From: a bacterium
GTDB lineage: Bacteria; Patescibacteriota; Patescibacteriia; Patescibacteriales; JAKAJF01
Assembly (NCBI GenBank): GCA_021788015.1
Contig: JAJYLD010000009.1
Coordinates: 1 to 40,877 of the forward strand
Length of the DNA: 40,877 nt
Direction of reading: 5' to 3'
The notes below the pieces were generated by a model. The model was not told the DNA's origin. It ran no database searches and worked only from the letters and a program-made list of their open reading frames with translations. Positions 20,418 to 22,295 of the stretch are shown here, piece by piece. The number at the start of each line of letters is the position of its first letter. Within the stretch, counting starts at the first letter, position 1. Made by a program: the position numbers and the translations under genes.

Positions 20418-21806
20418 ATGGCCAATATCGAAAAAGAAAAAGAGCCGAAAATTAAAACAAGGGCAAGAAAGAAAGCGGTCTCCAAGACGAAAACAAAATC
20501 GGGCGCGAAGAAAAAGATCGCGGTAAAGAGGATAATCACCAAACAAAAAGTAGAAAAAGGAGAAGAACCGATAGTGGAAAAAATCAATGAAGAATTAAAA
20601 AAGGAAGTTACGGAAGTGCCGGCTTTCATAAATGCCAAAATAAACAAAGAGAAGGAAGGGCCGAAAAAGAAAACCGTTTCCGCCAAAGGCCGTTCAATCG
20701 GTCTTTATCGAAAAATCGCTTTTTTGTTTTTGTTTTTGACCGCGGCGCTTTTGGTTTCCGTTTTTTACTTTTCTTTTACGAAAGTCGACATCGTTTTAAA
20801 ATCGAAACTGGAATCGGCGAGCAACAGTTTGATTTTTAATGTTCAGGACAAGGACAAGGGGAACGCAAAAGACGGCGCCGTTTTGGGAATCGCGAAAGAA
20901 ATAGACGCCGAGTACTCCAAATCTTATCAACCTTCGGAAAGCCAGGTAACAGGCGAAGAAGTAACGGGGCAAGTTACGCTCATAAATAATTATTCAAGAA
21001 GCCAGCCTCTTATCGCCACAACACGATTGTTGTCCGCCGACGGCAAGCTGTACCGTTTAAAAAATACGGTAAATGTCCCCGCGGGCGGTTCAATCGTAGC
21101 CGATATTTATGCCGACTCTCCGAGTCCGGATATGGCTATCGGCCCGACGCGATTCACCATACCGGGTCTTTGGGCGGGGATTCAAGATAAAATCTATGGC
21201 CAAAGCTACGCTCCTCTGGTTTATCAAAAAATAAAAAAAGGCACTATCGCCGCAACAGATATCAACAATGCCGTCGTCGATTTAAAAAATTCGCTTTTGG
21301 CAAAAGTAAAATCGGACAATTCGGCGAATTTCAACGGTTACGACCAGATGCTTTACAGTATCGACGACGGTTCGGTTCAAACGCAATTTGACGGAAAAGT
21401 CGGAGAAGAAAAAGACAGTTTTAGCGGGACCATAAAAGCGAAAGTTCTCGTAACGGCTTTTTACGGCAATGTAATTTACAATCTGGCGAAGGAGAAGATG
21501 GAGACAAGCATTCCGGAAAACGAAGAGCTTGTCAGTTTGGATCCGAGCAACTTCGTTTATACGGTTACGAATTTTAATGTCGATCAGGGTCTGGCTACAA
21601 TTAATGTAAATTTTGCGGGAGATATCCGATTGAAAAATGACGCAAACATAATCGATAAAAATAAAATTGTCGGATTGACGAAGGACCAGCTTGACAGTTA
21701 TCTCGACAGCATTCCCGGAATCGATTCTTACACTATAAAATTCTCCCCTCCTTTTCTTGAAAAAGCTCCCGATTTGGCCGATCGGATAAGTATTGAGGTG
21801 AAATAA
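20418..21806 (+). CDS. Membrane-anchored baseplate J/gp47-like protein
   Basis: 462 aa; Lys-rich N-terminus, single TM, then beta-rich region GQVTLINNYSRSQPLIATTRLLSADGKLYRLKNTVNVPAGGSI typical of this family. Confidence 0.6.
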   Translation: MANIEKEKEPKIKTRARKKAVSKTKTKSGAKKKIAVKRIITKQKVEKGEEPIVEKINEELKKEVTEVPAFINAKINKEKEGPKKKTVSAKGRSIGLYRKIAFLFLFLTAALLVSVFYFSFTKVDIVLKSKLESASNSLIFNVQDKDKGNAKDGAVLGIAKEIDAEYSKSYQPSESQVTGEEVTGQVTLINNYSRSQPLIATTRLLSADGKLYRLKNTVNVPAGGSIVADIYADSPSPDMAIGPTRFTIPGLWAGIQDKIYGQSYAPLVYQKIKKGTIAATDINNAVVDLKNSLLAKVKSDNSANFNGYDQMLYSIDDGSVQTQFDGKVGEEKDSFSGTIKAKVLVTAFYGNVIYNLAKEKMETSIPENEELVSLDPSNFVYTVTNFNVDQGLATINVNFAGDIRLKNDANIIDKNKIVGLTKDQLDSYLDSIPGIDSYTIKFSPPFLEKAPDLADRISIEVK

Positions 21807-21835: not shown

Positions 21836-22007
21836 GTCCCTTTTTTTAGAAAAAAGGGACGCAAAAAAGCGCTCCCGTTGAAAAATTGCTAAATTTTTCC
21901 GGTATGCCTAACAAAATTTCAAACTCACCCGCCCCGGTGTACCGGGACGGGTTCAAACAGTGAAATTTTGTAACGGCATTTCGAAAAAATTTTTAACGCA
22001 ATTTTTC
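21836..22007. repeat. Composite two-hairpin element, copy 2
   Basis: GTCCCTTTTTTTAGAAAAAAGGGAC hairpin plus a ~128-bp palindrome with core TTTCAAACTC...TTCAAACAGTGAAA; same layout as 6678-6830. Confidence 0.85.
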
Positions 22008-22073
22008 CAAGGTCGCAAAAATAATTTTTATTTATTGCGTTATGAGTTATGCGATATTCGTTACGCGAGGGAG

Positions 22074-22101
22074 TTGACTTTTTAATTTTTTAGAGTAAAA
22101 T
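22074..22101 (+). promoter_or_regulatory. Sigma70-type promoter of the thrS leader
   Basis: TTGACT (22074-22079), 16-nt spacer, TAAAAT (22096-22101). Confidence 0.7.
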
Positions 22102-22106
22102 AAGTT

Positions 22107-22287
22107 ATAGGCGATTGTTGCGTCTACCAAGCGCAAAGCGAAAACTGCCGAAAGGCCTAAGTCTAGTCAAAAGCGCCCCGGTTACGCCGGGGAAACTGGG
22201 TGGAACCGCGAGGGAACAAAAGACCCCGTCCCAGTCCCGTTTACCTGAAATTTAGTAAGGAAAAGCGGGATTGAGACGGGGTTTTTA
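22107..22287 (+). ncRNA. T-box riboswitch leader (Thr) with transcription terminator
   Basis: CTGGGTGGAACCGCGAGGG T-box sequence; CCCCGG-TTACG-CCGGGG Stem III; antiterminator ACTGGG/CCCAGT; competing terminator ACCCCGTC...GACGGGGTTTTT; ACC in a hairpin loop; located upstream of thrS. Confidence 0.92.
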
Positions 22288-22295
22288 ATTTAATT

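Follow-up and report, generated by a model that had tools for sequence, protein, structure and literature searches.

T-box riboswitches fall into at least four classes, in which codon–anticodon pairing with the tRNA is augmented by the IDTM, a double T-loop motif that binds the tRNA elbow, by the S-turn of Stem II, which clamps the tRNA, or by both (PMC10482949). Class III is the class with an apical specifier and, according to the same paper, it requires Stem II. Transcriptional T-boxes generally need a long Stem I, and a RRRxG-Stem III-AA motif has been described (PMC7583486), which the AAGCG-Stem III-AA of the leader presented here matches. TBDB applied its class II (translational) model to Actinobacteria and to those class I hits in which Stem I was truncated (PMC7778990). 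Isolated examples of the present type could be sitting unremarked in that database, and the open literature that we searched contains no mention of T-box riboswitches together with the Candidate Phyla Radiation (CPR) or Patescibacteria.

The window, i.e., the whole stretch of 40,877 nt that was analysed, is contig C2 of a source genome of 1.13 Mb in 13 contigs. The ThrS protein encoded in the window has its nearest named records in Candidatus Falkowbacteria (77% and 74% identity), followed by other Parcubacteria-type lineages, and this supports the CPR origin suspected in the first-pass annotation. The thrS gene is flanked upstream by an ORF of 462 aa (20418–21806) and on the other side by a radical-SAM/UPF0004 protein. 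Searches of NCBIfam and Pfam gave no match for the 462-aa ORF; protein ends similar to that of this ORF precede thrS in several relatives. About 300 nt separate the end of the upstream gene (21806) from the leader helix P1. Downstream of the 462-aa ORF and ahead of the thrS promoter there is an imperfect inverted repeat (21875–22012) with 15-nt arms 108 nt apart.

Architecture of the thrS leader

Ahead of thrS, the region 22074–22290 holds a promoter followed by a T-box leader of very compact form and by a terminator (Table 1). From the inferred start site near 22108, placed by sequence only, there are 68 nt to Stem III, which are taken up by P1, the specifier hairpin P2, P4 and a 10-nt linker, with nothing else. 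Comparison of leaders shows a domain closed by P1, with ACC exposed in the apical loop (7 nt) of a 5–6-bp hairpin, and a short, unstructured linker that joins this domain to a standard discriminator with Stem III, antiterminator and UGGA. The first-pass annotation had proposed the promoter, a very short Stem I, the apical ACC and thrS as the target gene, and the present analysis agrees with it on all four. Its basal helix TAGGC/GCCTA was wrong, as homologues and the minimum free energy (MFE) structure both pair UAGGC with GUCUA instead.

Table 1. Features of the thrS leader and its target gene, in window coordinates
Feature	Position	Strand	Support
Sigma70-type promoter TTGACT-16 nt-TAAAAT (-35 22074–22079, -10 22096–22101)	22074–22101	+	10/12 consensus matches
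P1 5' strand UAGGC, pairs with 22161–22165	22108–22112	+	5/5 pairs with two-sided changes in relatives
Conserved GAUUG, P1 to specifier hairpin	22113–22117	+	73/88 distinct leaders
Specifier hairpin P2, UUGCGU[CUACCAA]GCGCAA, 7-nt apical loop	22118–22136	+	6/6 pairs with two-sided changes; 95.8–99% paired
Specifier ACC (Thr codon, anticodon GGU)	22126–22128	+	ACC at loop positions 3–5 in 80/88 leaders
P4 hairpin GCC-GAAA-GGC inside P1	22147–22156	+	MFE; hairpin adjoining CUAA in most relatives, sequence variable
Conserved CUAA before P1 3' strand	22157–22160	+	73/90 aligned rows
P1 3' strand GUCUA	22161–22165	+	MFE, homologues, covariation
Unstructured linker ending in RRRxG (AAGCG 22171–22175), where Stem II and IIA/B would stand	22166–22175	+	Folding of 88 linkers
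Stem III CCCCGG-UUACG-CCGGGG (22176–22192), then AA	22176–22194	+	5/5 pairs with two-sided changes; RRRxG-Stem III-AA motif
Antiterminator: A1 ACUGGG/CCCAGU, bulge UGGAACC (22201–22207), A2 GCGAG/CCCGU	22195–22235	+	Covariation, RF00230, nascent MFE
Intrinsic terminator and U5, 5' arm shared with antiterminator 3' arm	22222–22286	+	Hairpin 22222–22281, -36.5 kcal/mol
thrS, threonyl-tRNA synthetase, 590 aa	22414–24186	+	TIGR00418, 689 bits; Pfam tRNA-synt_2b, HGTP_anticodon, tRNA_SAD

The linker between P1 and Stem III measures 6–38 nt in relatives (median 13), and none of the 88 linkers folds below -2 kcal/mol. Linkers this short and unfolded leave no Stem II and no IIA/B pseudoknot. Judged from the sequence, then, the leader is without both the distal part of Stem I (IDTM) and Stem II; the lack of Stem II, which the first-pass annotation had missed, is the more unusual of the two. 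As candidate structures we considered base pairs between GAUUG and CUAA and a K-turn at these segments; both segments are nearly invariant in the leaders and covariation is therefore uninformative here.

The T-box sequence UGGAACCGCG is present in the window together with A1 and A2 helices that covariation supports. The strand 22107–22290 folds better than 200/200 shuffled sequences (z -4.5). Up to the 3' arm of the antiterminator, the nascent leader has an MFE of -39.9 kcal/mol, in a structure made up of P1, P2, P4, Stem III and the antiterminator. The full leader reaches -71.1 kcal/mol with the terminator, compared with -57.9 kcal/mol when the antiterminator is enforced. The two structures are predicted to exclude each other, which is the usual design of a transcriptional T-box, and overlapping terminators were seen in 35/38 leaders, in line with the transcription termination proposed in the first-pass annotation. 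About 130 nt lie between the terminator and the thrS start codon.

An Rfam scan at gathering thresholds gave no match in the window. When run in E-value mode, RF00230 matched 22082–22236 with 35.4 bits (E 2.5e-6 in 501 nt), against a gathering score of 93, which is a curation limit and not a biological feature; in this alignment the long Stem I has deletions at about 70 positions. The scan, which the first-pass annotation had proposed as a check, recovered the T-box at a score under the threshold, and this match and the covariation described below both bear out the T-box identity. None of the RF00230 matches above the cut-off was a thrS leader of this compact type. A covariance model built from relatives scored the window at 104.8 bits (22105–22236), the window itself being among its training rows. 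The alignment behind this model has 18 rows; with 24 leaders, MAFFT placed CUAA wrongly in several rows.

Conservation and distribution in related genomes

Among 60 relatives, the same 5' domain was found in 35 of the 36 thrS leaders having a T-box core. In genome G045 no specifier hairpin could be recognised beside the T-box core. A set of 37 thrS leaders of relatives has in common P1, GAUUG, a specifier hairpin whose 7-nt loop contains ACC, and CUAA before P1. Parsed by hand, these leaders pair at 83% in P1 and 97% in P2, compared with shuffled maxima of 69% and 71%. In the 18-row alignment two-sided changes occur at 22/26 pairs, and none of 500 shuffles reached the observed values. Placing 88 distinct leaders on the model gave two-sided changes at all 26 pairs with 94.3% of cells paired, and sliding the register by one base lowered pairing below 49%, though this alignment was fitted to the structure and hence leans towards it.

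The ACC loop is kept while the stem of P2 varies freely. The triplet at positions 3–5 of the loop is ACC in nearly all of the 88 leaders (Table 1) and ACU, also a Thr codon, in two, a conservation that is partly built in by the collection of leaders by pattern and model; the loss of the ACC loop, which the first-pass annotation had named as evidence against its proposal, was accordingly not the pattern seen. Positions 1 and 2 of the loop are mostly C and U, and positions 6 and 7 mostly A. Among the thrS leaders collected via RF00230 instead, two (L194 and L244) are without the ACC hairpin. A thrS leader of the same type in Patescibacteria bog_1341 (L188) has ACU in place of ACC, a natural synonymous change of the specifier.

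The source genome has three tRNA-Thr (GGU, UGU and CGU), all with U73. U73 was also found in the tRNA-Thr(GGU) of 30/30 genomes, the source genome included, so the UGGA of the T-box is complementary to U73-CCA, as the first-pass annotation had expected of a tRNA ending in UCCA.

Promoters in relatives have on average 2.0 mismatches, compared with 3.8 in shuffled sequence, and the -10 element lies mostly 6–14 nt before P1.

The thrS model has matches in 141 of the 286 genomes sampled in the class and in 73 of 380 genomes spread over the phylum, some of those in the class through other T-boxes; many of the weaker matches are such T-boxes, picked up through the common discriminator. Most strong matches with an assignable gene precede thrS. 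The best score in 14 non-CPR records was 42.7 bits, compared with more than 55 bits for 81/90 matches in CPR thrS leaders. In the closest ThrS relatives (G002 and G021), as in several others, no T-box precedes thrS, and the element thus comes and goes, T-box control of thrS not being universal. Loci with thrS but no T-box include L064, L065, L075, L083, L096 and L104, and in several of these thrS lies within tens of bases of the upstream gene. As thrS nearly abuts the upstream gene there, T-box and promoter were gained or lost between two genes.

Other T-boxes were also seen. The source genome has a second one (G000:C11:61005-61226, minus strand; locus L002) before a TrpB-like (trpB_rel) gene, and the UGGC of this T-box fits the tRNA-Trp G73 of the source genome. 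Trp leaders of relatives have in common a UGCGUUAGUGG-like motif together with the stretch CCGUAACC..AUAGGAUAA. Very short Stem I structures are found in the CPR aspS leaders L041, L044–L047, L050–L052, L062, L200, L235 and L242, which have apical loops of about 6 nt with GAC or AAC. AAC is often combined with UGGU, and GAC with UGGC, although exceptions occur. An AAC specifier ahead of AspRS points to sensing of tRNA-Asn by an enzyme that may be non-discriminating. Ultrashort CPR leaders were also observed before glyS (L061, L290, L296, L298, L302 and L306) with GGC, before valS (L057) with GUC, and before a probable serS (L303) with an apical AGC. Several of the other ultrashort leaders have a K-turn-like base, and those of glyS are apparently without Stem II. 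All these features of the aspS, glyS, valS and serS leaders were read by eye and serve as leads only, since an automated search of other T-boxes for hairpins flanked by K-turns was not reliable and gave many wrong hairpins or none; the asp, gly and val genes were named by NCBIfam and serS from the protein start only.

Proposed tRNA sensing and alternative explanations

The element is very probably a T-box that senses uncharged tRNA-Thr(GGU) and controls thrS by transcription termination, a statement that leaves loop-to-loop detail aside. The core T-box features that were tested agree with this reading, as UGGA is matched by U73, the specifier matches the gene, and RRRxG-Stem III-AA is present. 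The T-box call is also supported because the apical triplets fit the genes in the aspS, glyS, valS and probable serS leaders of related genomes. The GGU anticodon of tRNA-Thr would pair with the specifier ACC, and the uncharged 3' end, U73-CCA, would pair with UGGA and stabilise the antiterminator, upon which RNA polymerase could read on into thrS. Charged tRNA would be unable to pair with UGGA and the terminator would form.

How the anticodon is bound is less certain than the sensing of tRNA, and most likely it involves loop-to-loop pairing of two 7-nt loops, without elbow contact or a Stem II clamp. In size and layout, the loop C-U-A-C-C-A-A resembles the anticodon loop of a tRNA (Y32-U33-34-35-36-R37-A38). 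As known from anticodon–anticodon complexes, complementary triplets bind each other far more tightly when each sits in a 7-nt loop than when they are free, which would explain how a single hairpin could be enough. A conserved purine follows the specifier on its 3' side; other T-boxes have it too, and alone it lends no support to the loop–loop idea. Taken as one joint reading, the element might represent a fifth T-box class, widespread in CPR and controlling transcription termination, with an anticodon-arm mimic as its tRNA-selecting part, in which a 5–6-bp stem with the loop Y-U-A-C-C-A-A kisses the anticodon loop without elbow contact or clamp. We propose this tentatively, with confidence a little short of even.

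A different arrangement, which concerns how the tRNA is held and not whether the element is a T-box, would have P4 (and P3 where present) replace Stem II, fold back and clamp the codon–anticodon helix. The element would then be related, in rearranged form, to the actinobacterial ileS class and would not be a clampless binder. Most relatives do keep a hairpin adjoining CUAA within P1, and PMC10482949 has Stem II as a requirement of class III T-boxes. However, P4 varies in length, loop and sequence and has only 2–3 bp in several genomes, no common S-turn sequence could be seen by eye, and P4 is situated inside P1 instead of after Stem I, so that we consider such a clamp rather unlikely, if still worth bearing in mind. 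A true leader start further upstream, with a full-length Stem I that was overlooked, would find room in the about 300 nt free between the upstream gene and P1, including the inverted repeat 21875–22012. The promoter nevertheless adjoins P1 in the window and, judged by sequence, in most relatives, the match of the relatives' model starts only at 22105, the Rfam alignment deletes the distal Stem I, and P1 closes the domain with strong covariation; this start, which the first-pass annotation had also kept in view, is very improbable.

The thrS mRNA of E. coli has an operator that is bound by ThrRS. The hairpin studied here, with a 7-nt loop like that of a tRNA anticodon and its position upstream of thrS, might likewise be bound by ThrRS itself, with termination only secondary. 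The loop nevertheless carries the codon ACC, the complement of GGU, and not the anticodon that ThrRS reads, and both the UGGA of the T-box and RRRxG-Stem III-AA are retained, so that we give this explanation hardly any credence. The weak Rfam score and the loss of the two known tRNA-binding modules would also fit a decayed T-box that has lost tRNA binding and works as a constant attenuator. Yet every helix is maintained by compensatory changes, and many families conserve the specifier, UGGA and the terminator, which makes decay exceedingly improbable.

Comparison with described T-box classes

The thrS leader fits none of the four described classes and lies outside the described architectures. 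A conserved transcriptional T-box without either module makes the minimum for tRNA recruitment and reading within one transcription event directly testable, in an RNA some 130 nt long. The leader also points to tRNA-sensing control of synthetases as widespread in CPR, a group for which the papers searched discuss no T-boxes, and to a compact T-box type that standard Rfam thresholds miss.

Class III (Nocardia farcinica/Mycobacterium ileS) shares with the thrS leader a short Stem I without IDTM, an apical specifier, and a discriminator of Stem III plus T-box. It is, however, mostly translational, unlike the thrS leaders with their terminator and U run (35/38 leaders), and its specifier loop has 5 or 6 nt compared with 7 nt here. 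It requires Stem II and the IIA/B pseudoknot, both absent here, and it differs from the thrS leader in that the latter has no recognisable K-turn and has its specifier hairpin and P4 lying together within P1.

Class II (Bacillus subtilis glyQS) is likewise transcriptional and has an unstructured linker instead of Stem II, but its Stem I is long and includes the IDTM, its specifier sits in an internal loop and it responds to glycine, whereas the leader described here has only P1, P2 and P4 and responds, by prediction, to threonine. Class I (for example tyrS of Bacillus subtilis and thrS of Firmicutes) resembles this leader in type of target, in the logic of specifier and UGGN and in the terminator switch; its long Stem I with distal IDTM and its Stem II with S-turn are both missing here. 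The Megasphaera thrS leaders L146 and L150 are visibly longer and without the compact 5' domain. Clostridia-type (Firmicute) thrS leaders (L165, L187 and L191) look shorter than classical ones and have T-box cores. In class IV, Stem I is intermediate and the specifier sits in a side bulge between two helices, in contrast to the closed apical loop of P2.

The E. coli-type thrS operator has a loop that mimics the tRNA-Thr anticodon, whereas the loop here holds the complement, ACC. The short-Stem I leaders of aspS, glyS and valS in CPR share the apical specifier, the transcription terminator and the type of host with the thrS leader. By eye, the aspS leaders among them have loops of 6 nt, a base resembling a K-turn and what look like Stem II and IIA/B, whereas the thrS type has none of these.
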